From Rhizoctonia solani (lineage: Eukaryota; Basidiomycota; Agaricomycetes; Cantharellales; Ceratobasidiaceae): 64,000 nt of DNA. Location: contig NC_057385.1 of the NCBI RefSeq assembly GCF_016906535.1, positions 3,286,001-3,350,000 on the forward strand, given 5' to 3'. The notes below the pieces were generated by a model, which saw only the letters and a program-made list of their open reading frames with translations, made no database searches and had not been told where the DNA came from. Shown in pieces: positions 3,736 through 61,294 of this stretch. Position numbers and translations under genes: made by a program. How positions within the stretch are numbered: the stretch's first letter is position 1; each line of letters begins with the position of its first letter.

Positions 3736-4988
3736 TTAATTTCTTTTTGAGCGGTTATAGTACTTGTAGAGGTCATCGATCAATTCTTCGGGGCTACAAA
3801 GTATGTCGGGATCCCATCTTAAGAATACGCCATCCACTAATTTCGCGATGGTTTCAGCGAACTCTTCATCGCTCTGTGTCCCCGGAGATCCGAGCCTCAA
3901 CTCCTTCAGCCACCAGTCTATACAATGAGGTAAGTTAGATGGACAAGGTGTCCACTCTGGGAGGGTATCTTCTTCGAAGAATCTGCTTTCATTCGCGCGG
4001 TCGCTCATGCCTCTTGACCAAGATAACCTGGGATTCGATATAGAGATATCTTTGAGTTTAGGAAAGTCTGCATAGAGCTTTTGGACGTCAGCGAATTGTA
4101 CCTCGACGGTCTGAAACTGGGGCTTCGGCTCGAACGAGACGTGCAAGGAGAAGAGTCGGTTGGAAGGGATTTTGGATGCCGCGAGCATCGTTCTAGTCCA
4201 AGCCAATGGATCAACGACAGGCGCTTGGTTTCCTGACTTGATGGCGGTAGGAAACCGCATGCTGATAATGATGCTCGTTGGACAGTATAATTTGGGAGAT
4301 AAATCATAACTCTCCCGAATTAAAACTCCAACATCGTGCGCGGAGAGGTCGTGAGCTATGTCTAACCCCGGCCCATCCTGATTGACGCTAGGACAAATAT
4401 CAATGTGCATATAGCGAGGGTGATGGTGGTAAAAGAAAACGATGGGACGGTTTTGACAAAGTTTTTCCAGGGAGAGGTGATTCGGGAGCTCGATTATCGT
4501 CGCCAAGTTAGGTAGAAATTTGGGTCGGACGCTGCTAAGCTGAACCGCTGCTGGAATTTAAGACCACTTTGAAAGTAGAAGTCGCCATCGCTTTCATCGA
4601 TTGCGTCGGTGCCGTAGATCTGGAGCCTTGTGAGGGATTTCATAGCTCTCAGGACACAAACGATTAGATCGGGTATTACTTGAAATACCCGCTCCGGCCA
4701 CGAATGAGATGAGAAGAGCCGTCGACCAAGGTAGACGGATTTGGTCCTCTCGAGCATGCGTATCACCTCCCCATTAGCGCAAAGTCTGATTAGCTGGTCT
4801 GGCGTATGAAGGTATATGTCTCTGAGTAGGAGTGGCATGAAGGATTCGTGAAACCATCTGTTACACAGCACAAGCTTGGCGCGAGTCTCAAACGACGAAA
4901 GCTGTGCTATTATGTAGAATATATCATCTGGAAGTCTGGGAGATCGGGGAAAGCTACGTGATATAGGCATGTCAAGATGGCGCTGCAT
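3736..4988 (-). CDS. F-box protein, copy 2 (single frameshift)
   Basis: Tandem paralogue of the F-box gene at 1074-2392, same strand, unspliced, about 417 codons with one base restored. The F-box is LPDDIFYIIAQLSSFETRAK near residue 20. Shared C-terminal blocks include LPHCIDWWLKEL and DGVFLRW. The frame breaks near 4515-4518 after the block SLAASDPNF: read as is, the protein ends four codons later, but inserting one base in the T run gives F-LPNL, exactly as in copy 1. The lesion is at a different place from that of copy 1, so neither was inherited from the duplication. The role is presumably as an SCF substrate adaptor with unknown target. Length plus one base is divisible by three. Confidence 0.8.
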
Positions 4989-6025
4989 ATCGGTTAAAGC
5001 TTTGTCGTACTTGCAGGGACGGTTGGTCTAGTGGGCGTGGTACCTCAAGCTGGTTTGCTTCGAATAGGATACGGTTAAATTGGTGCGTGAACCAGCACAC
5101 GTGGAATATGAATCTTAAAAAAAAGCAAGCTAACATACGTGGCAGCCTAGGTGCCGGCCGTACGTCAGATTGATATATTGGTTTAATAAAATATGACAAT
5201 TGCAACGATGGTACGTCTCAGGTCTGCCTTTTTTGCACTCCGCAATTGATAGGCTAAGTTAGAATTGAAATATCTACAAATAACCTAGTACTCGATATCT
5301 TGCTCTCCAGTTTGCAGTTCGGGAGCATTGAGCTGTGATCAAATAGCTCTAAGATAAAAGACGCCACTTAAGGAAGATGTAGCTTTGAGACTAACCTTCA
5401 TCTGAAATAATCTCGTTAGGTTTTGGAGCACCCTGTTACCCGAAAAAAGGAAATTCCACAAGCTCCAGCATATAATTTAAAAGAAACGCAAATAAGGAAT
5501 GATGTGTATGCTGGAGACAAGAGATTCAGCGATATAACATCGGTTATAGAAGTATAATGGTGGAAAATTACGCATCACTTCTACTTCAGGCACACCTTTT
5601 CCTTCTCCACAGGAACACACGATCAAATAAAAGGCAATATTTTCATTGAGTTGTGACCTCATTTTTCAGATAGGCCAGGTAGATATGCAGCCGCCCAGGG
5701 CTCCACTATGGATGCTGATGCTGAAGACGTGCCTATGAGAGCCGACCAGAAATGATTTATGAATAGGAGCACTGTGAATAAAGCAGAAGAGATTTTCAAT
5801 CTCCATTGATGAGTGCGATTATATCCCCAATTAGCTCTCCGGGTACTAGGAGTAATATTTCACAGTTCATGATCTTGAGCAGGCAAGCAAAGGTGTCAAA
5901 TTATGGTGGTTGTGAAGTGAGTATCATGTGCTTAGTCAGCTGATGAACGGAACGGGTAATGTAACATCTTTTTGCTCACGAAATCATCTAGTCTTTGCGA
6001 TTCGCTCAACCTTCATCAACCCACG
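4989..6025. other. Intergenic / divergent upstream region of F-box copy 2 and TOM40
   Basis: The F-box copy 2 start (4988, -) and the TOM40 start (6026, +) point away from each other, so this 1 kb holds both promoters. It is AT-rich. I see no TATA box at a convincing distance, no repeat and no supported ORF. Confidence 0.55.
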
Positions 6026-7403
6026 ATGGCCTCCACATCGTTTCCCGCCCAGCCCAGCGAAAAGCGCCGACTTTAACTTCTGCTCCCGCACCTCCGGAGA
6101 CAGTAGTTACTTCCAGCCCCCTCGCTGCATTCGCCGCCGCAGCATCCCCGTTCGTCAACACCTATGGTCGATTTGCATCATGGAAGGCGGGCCTCGGGCT
6201 CACAAACCCCGGAACGACAGAAAATATGCAGAAGGAGGTAAAGAGTAAGTGACAATGCTATTTGATTGTATGCACAAGAGAGGATTCTCATCTGATGGTG
6301 ATCTCACAGTGACCCATGCAACCAATCACATCTTCGATGGTGCACGAGCAGATCTCTCCAAGGCTCTCTCGTTCAACCCTGCTTTCCAGGTCACACACTC
6401 TTTCAACCTTGCATCTTATAACAATCCGGCGACTTATAACTTCGGAGCAGTATTCGCAAATGGTGATGTAAGTTGTGTAATTGTAATTTTTTATTATCGA
6501 GCTTACCTTATCGATAAGCTCTTCATGCAAGGGGGCTCAGACCATGATGGAAATGTGACTGGGAGGTTAAACCGAGGCTGGTCTTCCAACAATATCACCA
6601 AGGTCCAAATGCAGGTAATTTAATTTCGCTCCCAGTTTGAATCTATCCCTAATTATACTATTGTATCCCTAGATTGCCAATAATCCCAATGCACAATCCA
6701 TGCTGCAGCTTGAACAGGACTACCAGGGGCAAGACTACTCTTTAAACCTTAAGGCGATTAACCCATCTCCCATCGACGGTACCGGTATCTATGTTGGCTC
6801 ATATCTTCAATCTGTCACCCCTCGCCTCGCTCTCGGGTTTGAGACCGTACACCAACGAGTTGGACCGGGAATGGCTGAGAGCATGACTTCATATCTCCTT
6901 CGCTGGACATCGCCACCTTCTCCTGTATCTTCGTTATCTGCTGCCGCTGGTGCTCCCGCACCCGGTTCTCATGAACCTGGCAAGTGGATTGCTACCGCGC
7001 ACTTGCAAGCACCAGGCATCCTCCAAGCAACTTACTGGCAACGTCTTAGTGAAAAGGTGGATGTCGGCGGATTTACAAATGATCATTGCTCCTGGGAGGA
7101 GAGACGCTATTGCGACGTTGGTGCCAAGTGGGATTTGAGGATGAGTACCATGCGGGCGCAGGTTGATTCTACTGGAAAGGTAGCTGCCTTACTGGAGCAA
7201 CGATTCGCTCCGACCTTTTCTTTCTTGGTTGGAGGGGAAATCGACCACGTAAAGGTAAGTAAACCGCAAAACACGCATCAGCGCAGGGTCTAATTCGAAT
7301 TATACAGAACCAAGCCAAAGTCGGTGTCGGTATTATGCTAGAATCCAGTGCCATGACAGAAGAAATGATGGCTCAGCAACAGCCTCCAAGTATTCCCGTG
7401 TAG
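6026..7403 (+). CDS. TOM40: Mitochondrial import receptor subunit TOM40 (one-base frameshift in exon 1)
   Basis: TOM40 is the beta-barrel channel of the outer-membrane TOM complex through which nearly all nuclear-encoded mitochondrial proteins enter. Five exons: 6026-6244, 6310-6467, 6519-6614, 6673-7254, 7308-7403, all with GT-AG introns of 51-65 bp. Family landmarks are the NPGT-EN-KEVK block at the end of exon 1, FDGARADLSK and FQVTHSFNL in exon 2, and a C-terminal VGVGIMLES strand before an acidic/Q-rich tail. The natural start ATG at 6026 reads 16 codons into TAA. One extra A in the A4 run at 6060-6063 puts it in frame with the conserved body. Exons sum to 1,151 bases, so one more base gives 384 codons (383 residues), normal for fungal Tom40. 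Because TOM40 is essential, a sequence error is more likely than a null allele. It converges on the ABC ATPase gene 223 bp downstream. Confidence 0.92.
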
Positions 7404-7626
7404 ATGGCCCAGCTCGTGGCTAACTACGATCAAAACATTGTGGCGGCCAACTGTTCCGTTATGTACGTATTTAGAAGCCCATTTATTAGGCATGTATAAT
7501 TCATCATTTGGAACTTGAGTTGTCTGTATTAGAGTTGTACCCCCGACCACCACTCCTAGTTAACATATAACTTCTGCATTATAAATCTAGAGTATACACT
7601 AATTGGGCAACTAAGTCCGGTCAAAC

Positions 7627-8586
7627 TCAGGGTGTGCCGTTTTGGTTATGGTATGCACTACTATCGCTTTCCTCAATTCCGTGGCCCGTGACGTTGATCC
7701 ACCGGGTTCCAACCCGTTCACTTTGATCGTGTGAGTGAGTGATCCAGACAATGGCCTTGATAGAAGACGAAGATTTGGGCAGCCCAGTTAGAGTCTTTTC
7801 AACCAGTGCGCTGGTTTCGCTGTCTAACGCGACGTCGGCTCTGAGCCACAGGAATATATAAGATACATCCTCATTTGAGAGCATAGTACGTACCATCTAG
7901 AAGCAATATTTCTGTTCCGCGTAGACCACACGCAATCGCCAACAACACCCTCTGAGCCTCTCCTCCACTCAATGTCGCCCATTCCCGGCTCCAGACATCA
8001 TCGGAGAGTCCCCATTCCTTTGCAATTTGGAAAGGGTCATGGGGTCCCGTTTCAAGTTGCGTCCGATCCTCATCGGGTCGGTGTTCCTGTGACGCAGTTC
8101 CAAAAGTCGAGTTTTGCGGCCTCTCCTTGTGAACAGCACGGGAACTGAATTCATTGATGGTCGTAAGAAAGTGACGAGGAGTTGAAGGAAGCATCGAGGG
8201 GCGCTGAGGAACATAGAGCACTTTGGTGCGGTACGTGGGAATTCCATATTTAGAAGGGGCTCTACAACCGAGGACCGGTCAATAAACAAAGCGAGTTGCA
8301 GGTAATTGATACACGCACTCGCCATGAAAACGAACATCTCCTTTACATACGTTCAGTTGTGCCAACGCTTTCAAAATAGTAGTTTTCCTAAAATGTACTA
8401 CTCGGTAAGCACGCTGGCCAAGAGAATCACCCGCTATTTCAATCACACTTACCCCCCTCCACTTCGACCTTGTAGGACTAAAATGTCCCCTTCGTGGAGG
8501 TCAAAGGATACATCGCTAAATATGGCTGTGTCTTTGTCCTTTAGGACACTTAGATTCCTTGCCGAAAGGAGCGGTTGGTTGGTCAT
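7627..8586 (-). CDS. Small ABC-type ATPase (FetA/YbbL-like single nucleotide-binding domain), frameshifted
   Basis: Stand-alone ABC ATPase of about 261 residues. Four exons on the minus strand: 8453-8586, 8319-8387, 7894-8261, 7627-7840. The Walker A GRSGGGKTT is split by intron 1. A VPQRPS block (Q-loop region), the signature LSGGEAQR, Walker B ILLLD and the H-loop WITHSHD follow in order. The D-loop region is where the break lies: splicing gives D-E-P-T-S and then one base is missing (near 7830) before ALDSET, so the canonical DEPTSALD is split across two frames. Exons total 785 bases; one more gives 262 codons. No transmembrane segments are present, so it would need a separate permease, as in the bacterial FetA/FetB (YbbL/YbbM) type. 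No such partner is visible nearby. Substrate unknown. Confidence 0.8.
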
Positions 8587-56234: not shown

Positions 56235-56239
56235 TTATC

Positions 56240-56519
56240 TGTTGAAATATCAGTCTCACGGAACCGTACATGTAATCCTTACGCATATATTTACTTACGT
56301 TTGGATGTACGAGTATAAATGTGTTCTTTATCGATTCTCGTGTACCTCAGTTCACTACCATATAGTAGAGCTGAGGTACGTATCATATCTTTCTATTCTG
56401 TTCATGTATGCTTATAATCCTGTAGATACAATATCGTTTAGGTACAGTATACACAAGAGTCCACTACCATATAGTAGAGCTGAGATACAATATCGTTTAG
56501 CTCTACGTGTCTTTCAACA
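56240..56519 (+). repeat. 5' LTR (280 bp)
   Basis: Differs from the 3' LTR at one base by eye: CCACTACC here (first C at 56461) against TCACTACC in the 3' LTR. Each LTR contains an internal direct repeat of CACTACCATATAGTAGAGCT and of GATACAATATCGTTTA. Confidence 0.93.
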
Positions 56520-56531
56520 GGTTATGAGCCC
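56520..56531 (+). other. Primer-binding site for initiator tRNA-Met (anticodon region)
   Basis: GGTTATGAGCCC directly follows the 5' LTR and is complementary to GGGCUCAUAACC of the initiator tRNA-Met anticodon arm. This is the half-tRNA priming mode known for Drosophila copia and yeast Ty5. The Gag start codon (56524-56526) lies inside it. Confidence 0.75.
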
Positions 56532-59500
56532 CGCCGCACCTGACACTAAACCCAACGAAGAGACCAAACTCGACGAACAAATATATTATACTATGTCAAA
56601 CGAGAACACATATCTCAATAAAAAGACCTACGAAATTCCGTTGCTCAAGGACGATGGATCCAACTACACAGCATGGAAATTCAGGCAGACAACGGTCCTT
56701 CGCATGCGAAAGTTACTCAGCATCGCTACGGGAGCTGAACCAGCACCAGTCGCACTTACCAGCGAAGAAGCAAAAGACAGCATCAAAGTGTCCCAACAGG
56801 CCGAAAAAATGGCGAAATGGAAGCAGCGGGACAACGAGGCATTCTCGCAAATCACCCTCAATATGGAGGATGGTGTCATGAACAACATCGTCGACACAAC
56901 ATTGGCAAACAAAGCCTGGACGCGGATTATCAAGCGCTGGGAAGGCAAGGGCATGCAATCGCTGTCCTTCCTATACCAACAATTAATGAGCACAAAAATT
57001 GAGGAAGAAGAGGACCTTACCACCGGGTTCAATTCGATAAAATCAACAGTCTCAAAAATCAAGACACTTGGAGAGTCCATCAGCAATTTCCTACTTGCTC
57101 AGATAATCATGAATGCGCTCCCACCATCCTATGCAATTGTCAGCACCGTCATCCAGACATCTATGCAGCAGGCAGCCATCACATCCGATGCCGTATGCAA
57201 AGCCGCGTTACGAGAGGAAGAACGTCGGCAAAAAGGTGGAGGGATTACTGCAATGTTTGCGCAATCGTCAAAGGGCAAATCTATGACGAGAAAATCAGCA
57301 AGGAACAACCCAAAAGGGAAGAAGAAGGACTTAGGTCCCCCTTGCGCCAACTGCTCAAAGCCCGGTCACACCAAGCAGGAATGCTGGGCAAAAGGCGGTG
57401 GAGCCAAAGGCACTGGTCCCCGGCAGAGACGGCAGAACTCAAAGCAGTTGAAGGACAAGTCCAATGAGTCCCAAGCCAACACATCAAAAGGCAACTCCGC
57501 TAAGGTTGCCGTAACGGATAAATCAGGCAATTCCTCCGTAGGCCCCAAGATATATGCGCTCACCGTATCGGACAAATTGTCACATAACGAGAATGCCTGG
57601 CTACTTGATTTGGGTGCATCAAGACACATGACGCCAAATTGGCATTGGTTCTACACCTACCAGACGCTAACACCACCGATCCAAATTTGAGTGGGCAATG
57701 GGAACTTGATCCCTGCGATTGGCGTTGGCCAAGTTCATGTAACGTTATACAACCATCACGGCGTCAAAACTCCTGCGTTCATGAAGTCCGTGCTACACGT
57801 ACCCAAATTAAATGCAAACTTAATGTCGGTCAAAGAACTCACCCAAGGAGGCACCGATGTGCTCTTCCGTAAATCATTTGGCGCAATTCTTGTAGGCAAC
57901 CAAGGCAACGGGCCTGAAATAGGCTTTGCTAAAGAAACATCTGGTCAGCTATACAAAGTTAAATGCATTGTAAAACATACCGAGGTCAACACATACACGG
58001 CTATTGTTGAGTCCAAAAGCATCAACAACAGGGACAATATTGATGCAGGCAAATTTGTTGCATATGCCGCCGGGAAAATTGCACACGCAGACCTCAAGAC
58101 CTGGCACAGACGATTGGGTCATGTCAGCTACAAGTACGTTCTTGACATGTTTTGGAACGGCTCAGTACGCGGAATGGACATTGTAGGAAAGCGCTCACCT
58201 CCACAATCTCCATGCAAACCTTGCCTCAAAGGCAAACATGCACGCGCACCATTTGTTCCATCACAATCCACCTCGTCCTCAGTCCTTCAACTTATGCATA
58301 GCAATCTCCATGGCCCAGCTGCAGTCCAAGGGATTGGCGGGATTTGATTCTTTGCGATAACAATTGACGATAAGTTGCGCAAAATTTTTGTGCACCTACT
58401 AAAGTCAAAGGACAAATACCCAGCCCAATTTAAAGAGCTCAAAGCGTCAGTTGAAAACCTTACAGGTAATAAAATCAAAGTTTTGCGCACCAATGGAGGA
58501 GGCAAATACACCTCAAACGCCTTTGAAGACTGGCTACGCAGCGAGGGAATTGAACACCAAAAGACCAAGGCAAACTCGTCAAAAAGTAATGCCGTAGCCA
58601 AGCGCGCAATAAGGACGTTAAACAACTCCAAACAATGTATGCGCGCCAATGCCGACTTACCGGACAAATTCTGGGGCTACGCCATACTCCACGCGGCGTA
58701 CATATCAAACGTTACCCCAAAGACCTCTCTAAATGGTTGAACGCCCAAAGAGGTATTTTCAGGCCAAACTCCCGATGTAGCTTGACTTTGTATTTTTGGC
58801 TGCACGGCATGGGCAAGAATACCCGATAATAAGCGTACTAAGCTACAACATTGGTCGATGAAATGCACGTACCTGGGCTTTGCACCAAATCAAAAGGCGC
58901 ATTTACTTGTTCAACAAGAAACCGGAAAGATCCTAACCTCCCAAGACGTCGTATTTGATGAAGGAATTGGAAATTGTCATCGGGTAATACTAGAAACCTA
59001 CGAGGACAACTGTCATAAACAGAGGAAAATAGAACTAGCCGGAATTGAACCAGCTTGACCACTAAGCCATAGAGCCCTATTATTCCTCTGCTGACAACCC
59101 ATGATTACACCTGCTACCCCCCAAATTTGGGCTTGGGCCAGCATGCAACCACTTGTACTGGTCATGTGACCGTGTCCAGGACAACGACTCTAGCGCTGAA
59201 AACAAGCCAAAATCCAACGCTCACAACTCTAACGCCAAAAACAAACCAAAGCCCGAGACTCACGACTCAAATGCCAAAACCAAACCAATGGAAAATCCAC
59301 CGGCAGCAGAGCCGGTAACATTTTGACGCTTGACTCAACCCTCAAAACCTCCTCAACGGTACAGGGCAAATGTGGGCGCTGAAGATGCATGGTTAACGCA
59401 TATAAACGCAATGGTAGAGGCATTTAACACTGCTCTAGCTGCTCCCCCAACAACCTTTGCCAAGGCGATGTCCTGCGTAGATGCTCAAATGTGGATGGGC

Positions 59501-60976
59501 GCTATGAACAAGGAGTACAACTCAATTACTAAGCACGGTGTGGGAAGACAAGTTGAGCAACCTATTGGAAGAAATGTGGTCGAATGCAAATGGGTTTTTG
59601 GGTACAAGATAGGTCCAAACGGCAAAATCCTACGGTATAAAGTCAGACTGGTTGCGAAAGGATACTCTCAGCGTCCAGGTATCGATTTTGAAGATACGTC
59701 CTCACCCGTTGCAAATTCCGACTCCACGCGTACACTCCTGGCCAAAGGTACGAGCGAAGATTACGACATAATTCAGCTCGATATCAAGACTGCCTTCTTA
59801 CATGGCACAATCGAGGAGGAGATATACATGGAGCAGCCCGAAGGCTTTGAGGACGATCCCGTGAAATACGTTTGGCGGCTCGAGAAGGCACTATACGGCC
59901 TCAAGCAAGCAGCGCGAGCATTTTATTCTCGACTACGCGAAGTTCTCGAACAGATCGGGTTTACCCGATGCGACTCCGACCACGCCGTCTTTCATAGGCG
60001 AAATAAAAATAACATCGCATTTATTGTAGCTCACGTAGACGACATGCTATTAATCGGCAAACCTCGTACCTTTCTCGAGGAAATCAAGTCCGAAATGGCG
60101 AAAGTTTTCGAACTTGTCGATCTAGGAGAGCCGAAGATGTTCGTCGGAGTGTCGATTCATCGAGATCGCGATGCCGGAACCCTCAAAATATCGCAAGAAC
60201 GATACATCGAAGAAGTCCTAAAAAGATTCGATATGAACGATTGTAAGCCGAGCGACACGCCTATGGCCGAATCGCCGAATCTACCGAAACTCGACTCACC
60301 GACTGTCGACCGAGCCCTATACCAGCGCGGCATTGGTTCGCTGATGTATGCTATGGTACAAACACGGCCCGACATCGCATATGCGACCGGCCTGTTGGCC
60401 CAGCACTCCGCAAACCCAGGGCACGAGCACCGGAATGCATTCAAGCGTACTCTGCGGTATTTAAAGGGCACAAAGGACCTCGGTATAGTTTACAAGAAGT
60501 CGAAAGGATCGGAACTCACCGGTTACGTCGATGCCGATTACGCAGGCGATCCGAACACCAGTCGATCGACTACCGGGTGGACTTTCATGATAGGCGGGGC
60601 GAGTATCGCATGGTCATCGAGAAAACAGCCGACGATCTCGCTATCGAGTACGGAGGCCGAATACGTTGCTGCCGCAAGTGCTACACGCGAGCTAATTTGG
60701 CTTCGCCAATTCTTATCAGAACTCGATTTACTCCCCGAAGGGCCGACAACTTTACTTACCGATAATCAATCGAGTATGGCTCTTGCGAAGAATCCGATCA
60801 ATCACCAGAACACAAAGCATATCCGAATTAAACACCATTTTATTCGTGAGATGATCGAATTGAAGGAAGTCGACTTACAATACATCCCGACCAACGAGCA
60901 GGTGGCCGATATACTTACTAAGCCGCTCGGAAGAACCAAGTTCCCCGGCTTTGTTGCTGATATGGGCATGTCTTAA
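56524..60976 (+). pseudogene. Copia Gag-Pol, defective
   Basis: Gag has a CX2CX4HX4C zinc knuckle (CANCSKPGHTKQEC). The protease motif expected as D-S-G is D-L-G (57607-57615). TGA codons interrupt the frame at 57688, 58345, 58738 and 58783. In the integrase the three catalytic acidic residues are replaced: HSN at 58303, N at 58492 and K at 58600. The last two are 36 codons apart, the D35E spacing. The next part is displaced by an insertion around 59.02-59.33 kb. The reverse transcriptase and RNase H (59330-60976) form one open frame with VDDMLL, the QLDIKTAFLHG block, a TGYVDADYAGD RNase H start, and the typical ADILTKPLGR end. The stops fit CGA to TGA changes. Confidence 0.9.
59020..59090 (-). 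ncRNA. tRNA-like fold lacking an anticodon arm, inside the copia element
   Basis: On the minus strand, a D-arm-like hairpin (GCTTAGTGGTCAAGC, with the A box TGGCTTAGTGG) is followed at once by a T-arm-like hairpin (GCTGGTTCAATTCCGGC, B box GGTTCAATTCC). The two overlap by two bases. Flanking CAGAGGAATAATAG and CTATTTTCCTCTG pair as an extended outer stem. There is no anticodon or variable region. It is probably a tRNA-derived (SINE-like) remnant. Transcription is not shown. Confidence 0.45.
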
Positions 60977-61000
60977 TTTTCCTTTCGTCTCCGTTATCCT

Positions 61001-61009
61001 GAGTGGGCG
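61001..61009 (+). other. Polypurine tract of the copia element
   Basis: GAGTGGGCG lies directly before the 3' LTR, where second-strand priming starts. It is a weak tract with one T and one C, but the position is right. Confidence 0.6.
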
Positions 61010-61289
61010 TGTTGAAATATCAGTCTCACGGAACCGTACATGTAATCCTTACGCATATATTTACTTACGTTTGGATGTACGAGTATAAATGTGTTCTTTA
61101 TCGATTCTCGTGTACCTCAGTTCACTACCATATAGTAGAGCTGAGGTACGTATCATATCTTTCTATTCTGTTCATGTATGCTTATAATCCTGTAGATACA
61201 ATATCGTTTAGGTACAGTATACACAAGAGTTCACTACCATATAGTAGAGCTGAGATACAATATCGTTTAGCTCTACGTGTCTTTCAACA
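61010..61289 (+). repeat. 3' LTR (280 bp)
   Basis: Same length and ends as the 5' LTR with one base difference by eye, followed by the target duplication TTATC. Confidence 0.93.
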
Positions 61290-61294
61290 TTATC

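Follow-up and report, generated by a model that had tools for sequence, protein, structure and literature searches.

Introduction

Repeat-induced point mutation (RIP) in Ascomycota changes C to T on both strands of repeats with a bias for CpA, and leaves transposon copies that are heavily hit and carry stop codons created by the hits. For the Pucciniomycotina (Microbotryum), a RIP-like mutation with a TpCpG bias has been reported (Hood 2005 and Horns 2012, as cited by Hane 2014, PMC4014442). According to the available part of Hane 2014, Rhizoctonia solani, as an Agaricomycete, is expected to be biased toward CpG but not toward TpCpG, and in R. solani AG8 CpG hypermutation occurs between nuclei, with about 40% CpG among the C/T changes, in genes and repeats alike (PMC4014442). 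In Podospora, the long terminal repeat (LTR) family crapaud is hit by RIP and includes recombinants, for which the accessible sections of the paper discuss gene conversion, ectopic recombination, and template switching (PMC10787394). Here, we analyzed a copia element of R. solani XN (AG1-IA) that occupies positions 56,240–61,289 of the window, that is, of the whole stretch of 64,000 nt that was analyzed (contig NC_057385.1, positions 3,286,001 to 3,350,000 of the forward strand). In this element, a front half that is heavily damaged at TCG/CGA triplets gives way at about position 59,654 to a nearly undamaged back half.

With the Ty1/copia LTR retrotransposons (Pseudoviridae) the element shares the domains in copia order, a 5-bp target site duplication (TSD), and TG...CA ends of the LTRs; unlike them, its front is non-functional through TCG-directed changes, and it contains a nested short repeat. 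The similarities to RIP of Ascomycota are C-to-T changes on both strands, heavily hit transposon copies, and stop codons that arose from the hits, whereas the target is TCG/CGA rather than CpA, and the ends and LTRs of moderately hit copies are spared. The trinucleotide is the same as that described, in the source cited above, for Microbotryum, but the host is an Agaricomycete. As far as the consulted text on AG8 goes, the species complex, the C-to-T direction, and the involvement of CpG are shared, whereas here copia copies are concerned and the TCG context is strong (0.66 changes per site versus 0.07–0.20 for other CpG). With crapaud, the family shares RIP-type hits together with recombinants under discussion; in the part of that report at hand, recombination concerns the LTRs, and RIP targets those of full copies, whereas here the LTRs are often spared and the junction lies in the reverse transcriptase (RT) region. 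A literature search for Rhizoctonia and TpCpG surfaced only Hane 2014, and one paper matched a query for TCG, RIP-like, and Agaricomycotina; queries on template switching with RIP or on mosaic RIP-hit elements found none, and broader queries gave partial matches.

Results

A sharp damage boundary within the element

An original prediction, made from the sequence alone, held that TCG and CGA triplets are sparse in the front and dense in the back of the element. Counting bore this out, with 18 such triplets in 57,700–59,100 and 113 in 59,700–61,000, and the boundary, which had been placed somewhere in 59.1–59.7 kb, was refined to 59.65 kb. For this analysis, the genome (40,703,773 bases in 16 contigs) was searched for further copies; the searches were of a first-look kind, and their counts are lower bounds. 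At least four other long copies were found, namely, C9 (TSD GATAG), C13 (TSD GAATA), C11, and C1, the last of which lacks the 5' end, and hence no TSD can be read. C13 and C11 do not represent two insertions, because C11 is C13 plus its flanks, duplicated as one segment of 6,871 nt with 99.93% identity. Single LTRs were also found, one of which equals the 3' LTR of the element except for three missing bases. The differences between copies are almost all C:G>T:A, chiefly at TCG/CGA; differences of other types to the element amount to 3 of 136 for C9, 9 of 273 for C13, and 16 of 284 for C1.

Ancestral CpG sites were defined as those with a CG kept in some copy or with products of opposite strands among the copies, which yielded 368 sites. 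A change-point analysis of the inferred TCG-class sites gave a log-likelihood ratio (LLR) of 41.2, as compared to a maximum of 9.1 in 1000 permutations, with a support interval of 59,653–59,683 and the best point between 59,653 and 59,655. Up to 59,653 the element keeps 48 of 110 TCG-class sites (47 of 109 if site 59,185, which lies inside the nested repeat, is excluded), and from 59,655 onward 90 of 92. These retained fractions are inflated by ascertainment, because a CG in the element itself makes a site countable; moreover, the site inference conceals sites that are hit alike in all copies and favors the best-preserved copy. Both effects are addressed by tests on sites ascertained in C9 and by tests with an outgroup. 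Among the TCG-class sites that C9 keeps, the element is hit at 34 of 58 in the front and at 0 of 57 in the back (p = 1e-13). The front hits are directed to TCG, as only 3 of the 79 other CpG sites kept by C9 are affected. The element has gained private TCG hits that are confined to 56.55–59.65 kb (56,553–59,653), and the damage boundary is real, sharp, and unusual. In raw TCG/TTG counts across 37 copia copies of the genome, the LLR of the step was 77 for C1, 64 for the element, and 22 for the copy in third place.

The profiles of the other copies differ. C13 is hit along its whole length. C9 has no step above permutation in its inferred-site profile (LLR 6.4 versus 9.2), in which only the first 0.9 kb are cleaner, and its raw TCG share climbs from 0.23 to 0.49. 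C1 keeps 0 of 97 sites to the left of about 59.7 kb and 44 of 90 to the right of it. That C1 is a second example of the same mosaic is nevertheless doubtful, because its steps do not coincide (59,474–59,536 for other CpG, 59,623–59,854 for TCG) and because its left flank, with 11 CpG in 1.5 kb, and its front form one CpG-poor stretch, whereas the right flank is normal (48 in 1.0 kb). Close to its change in CpG content, C1 also carries two inserts, one of about 596 nt and one of about 161 nt (L012, 4040–5065), the shorter of which spans TGTTG to CAACA, like a single LTR. In C9 (L009, matching 56,290–58,870 of the window), 15 short gaps (1–4 nt, one of 30 nt) lie in the front and none behind about 58.9 kb, a pattern that resembles uneven polishing of the assembly. 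The C13/C11 copia element sits within a Gypsy remnant, the matched pieces of which hold no CpG (flanks of L010 and L011), and its duplicated segment is present on two contigs, with five gap bases differing over the 6.87 kb.

The original prediction had named as its own possible refutation that other copies show the same density step through protein-coding constraint alone, and such constraint was examined and excluded. Constraint or codon bias alone could make the back half rich in TCG, and the accessible text of one study names TCG as a preferred codon in Rhizoctonia (PMC7884421). However, at the 27 silent TCG-class sites of the back half, the element is intact at 26, C9 at 20, C1 at nine, and C13 at one; in the open relative L022 the step is not significant (0.75 before it and 0.62 after it; LLR 3.8, permutation P of 0.08); and C13, with a similar number of TTG/CAA, has 4% TCG along its entire length. 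Coding constraint was therefore rejected and has next to no probability. The TC context is typical of some cytidine deaminases, and the hits could have arisen by editing of single-stranded cDNA during reverse transcription. However, the two strands are hit alike, with 19 of 32 CGA-only and nine of 18 TCG-only sites affected (p = 0.56). Thus, genomic DNA rather than cDNA was changed, and cDNA editing, rejected by this strand balance, is a highly improbable source of the hits.

TCG-directed mutation in the copia elements of the genome

Among 58 RVT_2 matches in the genome, the 31 loci with an upstream gag on the same strand (at about 4.4 kb or less) were taken and, together with six elements, made up the 37 copies compared; C11 was omitted as identical to C13. 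The change rates per site, pooled over 48 overlapping pairs from 26 of the 31 loci and rough because availability was counted in one copy per pair, were 0.664 for TCG (with CGA), 0.200 for CCG, 0.144 for ACG, and 0.067 for GCG. CA contexts had rates of 0.016–0.131 (0.13 for TCA), and the remaining contexts stayed under 0.05. The copia elements of this genome have been subject to a C-to-T process that is directed to TCG and works on both strands. Like RIP, it involves C-to-T changes on both strands of repeats, to which the comparison was confined, and the excess of TCG over other CpG is that of the TpCpG-biased RIP-like process; the CpA bias of Ascomycota (0.016–0.131 here versus 0.664 for TCG) was not observed, and the repeats are not affected throughout, as the ends of nine moderately hit copies are spared. 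The TCG bias departs from the published expectation for R. solani cited above.

A Gypsy element with long open frames (L013, C3:2965867-2975866, at 4808–8554 on the minus strand) is nearly devoid of TCG/CGA (0–2.7 per kb), whereas its ACG, CCG, and GCG are at ordinary levels (11–25 per kb). A genome search with RVT_1 gave 788 candidates, and 142 of the best-scored 150 had no stop inside the match. Perhaps the Gypsy elements of this genome have lost the target of the mutator and thereby escape it. A copia pair (L028/L029; C7:2222471-2228247 and C10:2041529-2047302) is 99.93% identical over 5.78 kb without any substitution, which again suggests that a segment was duplicated, either from one chromosome to another or by the assembly.

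Old, shared damage and probable movement in trans

The four stops that had been reported for the front half were confirmed as in-frame TGA codons at 57,688, 58,345, 58,738, and 58,783, each derived from a TCGA site, and so was the loss of residues that we take to be catalytic. Compared to L022, in which the motifs are intact, the DSG of the protease is changed to DLG and two integrase D to N in all five copies, and an integrase E is changed to K in all but C9. With L022 as the outgroup, 28 of 37 TCG triplets in 57.24–59.0 kb but only 5 of 25 in the back are damaged in all copies. At 8 of 12 TCGA sites in the same front region, every copy carries the hit on the same strand, versus 0 of 11 in the back (p = 0.001); shared hits at TCG or CGA number 24 of 45 versus 7 of 33 (p = 0.005), whereas other CpG do not differ (7 of 32 versus 9 of 29). 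With the partly hit outgroup L021, the shared hits at TCG or CGA are 18 of 29 in the front versus 3 of 21 in the back. Very probably, as judged from these comparisons, the common ancestor of the copies had already been hit across protease and integrase, while its RT half was clean.

This ancestral lineage gave rise to three or more insertions whose target duplications differ (TTATC, GATAG, and GAATA), plus C1, so that separate insertions carry the same inactivating changes. Independent hits at the same catalytic residues are unlikely, given the shared-strand test. With catalytic losses in all copies and shared TCG damage in the front, part of the damage predates the insertion of the element; the lineage was already broken when it began to spread, and it probably moved in trans, that is, its insertions likely used the proteins of intact relatives. 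Thus, the proposal that the insertion used proteins supplied in trans appears likely, on the grounds of the shared losses and the distinct TSDs. Related open elements do exist in the genome, one of them with identical 280-nt end repeats and a frame of 1425 aa, and other families include open copia frames of 1425–1712 aa.

Spared ends and the dating of damage by LTRs

The LTRs of the element (56,240–56,519 and 61,010–61,289, 280 nt each, + strand) are identical at 279 of 280 positions, the one difference that had been predicted, and are flanked by the duplication TTATC at 56,235–56,239 and 61,290–61,294. The 5' LTR retains all 11 CpG and five TCG-class sites present in the 3' LTR. From this near-identity it had been concluded that the damage is older than the insertion. 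To assess this inference, we used the 16 copies of other families for which a close relative with fewer hits could serve as the reference. In the nine moderately hit copies among them (five families; overall retention 0.3–0.9, leaving out seven strongly hit copies that kept 0.16–0.25), 108 of 116 TCG-class sites are kept in the outer 300 nt (0.90 at the 5' and 0.96 at the 3' end); retention is 0.70 and 0.74 in the next 300 nt and 0.41–0.52 in bins that lie over 1.2 kb inward from an end. The sparing of the ends is less marked once the seven strongly hit copies are added: in all 16 copies, the outer 300 nt keep 70 of 102 and 71 of 93 sites, and the regions beyond 2 kb 175 of 534 and 165 of 508. 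LTRs can be identical even in a hit element (L035).

Steps above the permutation maximum (100 permutations) were found in nine of the 16 copies and were missing in seven; the nine steps lie about 0.3–0.9 kb from the end of the reference element, for example, in L041 (70/209 then 29/31), L035 (26/26 then 96/173), and L046 (77/182 then 17/17). In 24 overlapping pairs, the strand choice at TCGA was the same in 213 cases and opposite in 169, with no single pair significant. The overlap of hit sites exceeded chance in four of the 24 pairs (Fisher p below 0.01), and shared end-sparing may explain part of it. The simplest reading is that the copies of these other families were damaged in place and independently. 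Clean ends of moderately hit copies, together with an unshared strand choice, imply that clean LTRs also accompany damage in place; in this genome, it is ordinary for a moderately damaged copy to have LTRs that are clean and nearly identical. Therefore, the inference from the LTRs to older damage fails, and that part of the damage is older follows instead from the shared losses.

End-sparing of this kind does not explain the clean RT half. In the zone of 300–1600 nt from the 3' end, the nine hit copies keep 232 of 449 sites, as compared to 90 of 92 in the back half of the element (p = 2e-20) or 57 of 57 at the sites ascertained in C9 (p = 2e-15).

Relatedness of the two halves

The original prediction explained the mosaic by template switching and stated that a single copy nearest to both halves would refute it. 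Relatedness was judged by counting differences and not by formal trees. In the front, the differences independent of the mutator number 3 for C9, 13 for C13, and 29 for C1; in the back, 1, 4, and 19, respectively. Both halves are thus closest to C9, which, for the copies present in this genome, is the outcome that had been named as refuting, and template switching is not borne out by the test that had been proposed for it. The power of this test is low, however, because a switch between near-identical hit and clean sisters would give the same picture. The first-look searches of the genome found no further close copy that could have been the parent of either half, and no close copy ending near 59,654 that could have limited a tract by homology.

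The private front hits are not associated with the hits of C9 (odds ratio 0.9). Their inheritance from C13 or C1 was rejected, as the agreement in strand is at the level of chance on sites ascertained in C9; an apparent 9/9 agreement with C1 was dropped as a product of biased site choice. The back-half hits common to C13 and C1 fall on the same strand in nine cases and on the opposite one in a single case (p = 0.02), which, in one pair among many, is only suggestive of sharing. The element also has states found in no other copy, at 57,465, 57,754, 58,279, and 59,523 in the front and at 15 back sites that are kept nowhere else.

Organization of the element

Retrotran_gag_2, beta-barrel, pre-integrase, rve, SH3-like, and RVT_2 domains follow each other in the order typical of copia, with the integrase ahead of the RT, and together with the two LTRs and the short target duplication this places the element in Ty1/copia. 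It is not an autonomous copia element, as catalytic residues of protease and integrase are lost and the frame is interrupted. A probable primer-binding site, GGTTATGAGCCCCGCCGC, follows the 5' LTR at 56,520–56,537 (+ strand); its first 14 bases also adjoin the end repeat of L022, and we take the putative site to match the 5' half of the initiator tRNA-Met. Gag and the start of the protease, which has DLG instead of the DSG of L022, are encoded in a single frame at 56,524–57,690 (+ strand; PF14223, E 1.1e-34) that ends with the TGA at 57,688. The beta-barrel, pre-integrase, integrase, and SH3-like domains continue in the same frame at 57,691–59,008 (+ strand), which contains the other three TGA codons and the integrase changes D>N, D>N, and E>K. 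The Pfam cut-offs were passed by gag_2, gag_pre-integrs, SH3, and RVT_2; rve remained below its cut-off (25.9 versus 32.6 bits), and Pol_BBD scored 26.8 (cut-off 27) in one piece and 36.1 in the following one. The Pfam scan of the element gave no match for a protease or an RNase H, and both are assigned by motifs and through comparison with the relatives. The back half, which had been described as an open RT/RNase H frame, is indeed open at 59,327–60,976 (+ strand) and encodes an RT (PF07727, E 3.6e-66) with the motifs LDIKTAF and HVDDM, whereas the RNase H is assigned by position and by motifs that we assume to be those of this domain.

The nested repeat of about 175 nt (about 59,009–59,186) is not present at this position in the four other copies. 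At least 50 other places in the genome hold it at nearly full length with 98–100% identity, often as pairs about 260 nt apart, and Rfam returned no match at E 1. Its minus strand contains GGTTCAATTCC, which presumably represents a tRNA-like B box; possibly, the repeat is a SINE.

Discussion

The explanation that we put first, with a probability of roughly 45%, is that the element is a young insertion of a non-autonomous copia lineage in which a hit front was joined to a clean back at about 59,654. A TCG-directed process would have hit the ancestor across protease and integrase while the RT half stayed clean, and the broken lineage would then have inserted repeatedly with the help of proteins provided in trans by intact relatives. 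The front of the element would stem from a hit sister and its back and LTRs from a clean one, joined before or after insertion, either through template switching of the reverse transcriptase in one particle or through recombination at the DNA level of a hit copy or allele with a clean one, two routes that the data do not separate. The sharp junction is as expected for template switching; a different nearest sister for each half and identifiable parents were not found. Several observations weigh against the joining of two parents: C9 is nearest to both halves, and the assembly yielded neither of the supposed parents; at the private front hits, strand agreement does not exceed chance (same/opposite at TCGA 4/2 with C13 and 3/2 with C1); and abrupt tract ends occur in other families, too, although only about 0.3–0.9 kb from the end of the element. 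As for the ancestral damage, 5 of the 25 back-half TCG triplets likewise count as damaged in all copies with L022 as outgroup, and L021 weakens the TCGA contrast to 2 of 7 versus 0 of 7. Finally, XN is multinucleate, and its heterozygosity of 2.56 is the highest in the table available from the cited study (PMC7884421), so that a false join is conceivable.

A possible explanation, which comes second after joining, is that the element was hit after landing by a TCG-directed tract that stopped at 59,654; no recombination would be needed, and the clean LTRs and RT half would represent an unusually long spared 3' end. This fits with the steps in nine of 16 copies of other families, with the strand choice that is not significantly shared between copies of those families, and with the common nearest sister of both halves. 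However, the steps in those families lie much closer to the end than the 1.64 kb observed here, C1 is the only other one among the 37 copies with a step of such size, and no close truncated partner that could set the edge was found. An assembly artifact, third in order and rather improbable, would imply that nuclei carry hit and clean versions of the element and that, by haplotype switch or collapse, the consensus passes from the hit to the clean version at 59,654. The heterozygosity of XN, highest among the tabulated assemblies in the part of the report consulted (PMC7884421), would favor such a switch, as would the 15 gaps of C9, all of which lie to the left of about 58.9 kb and which suggest uneven polishing of repeats. 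On the other hand, the element has unique states on both sides of the boundary, which argues against simple cross-mapping from other copies and makes cross-copy polishing unlikely as the sole cause, and a collapsed consensus would be expected to mix site by site more often than to change once.

Recombinants in RIP-hit families are already known from crapaud, as far as the available text of that study extends (PMC10787394); what is newer is the combination, in this host, of a TCG context and spared element ends, that is, TCG-directed hypermutation of copia elements in R. solani AG1-IA, against the published expectation of CpG without TpCpG. There is also a warning in these results, in that near-identical LTRs are no guide to the age of such damage in this genome. 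The more general picture, in which a TCG-directed repeat mutator of an Agaricomycete breaks copia elements while leaving their LTRs and ends unharmed, and a lineage broken in protease and integrase spreads in trans and renews its RT half by recombining with clean sisters, an event frozen at 59,654, is offered as a tentative and somewhat doubtful proposal. If it is true, the spared LTRs and ends would keep broken copies transcribable and packageable. The family constitutes a natural record of the fate of a retrotransposon after genome defence: judging from the shared catalytic losses, the lineage went on spreading after it had been broken, and the step at 59,654 raises the question of whether broken and clean RNAs become re-joined.

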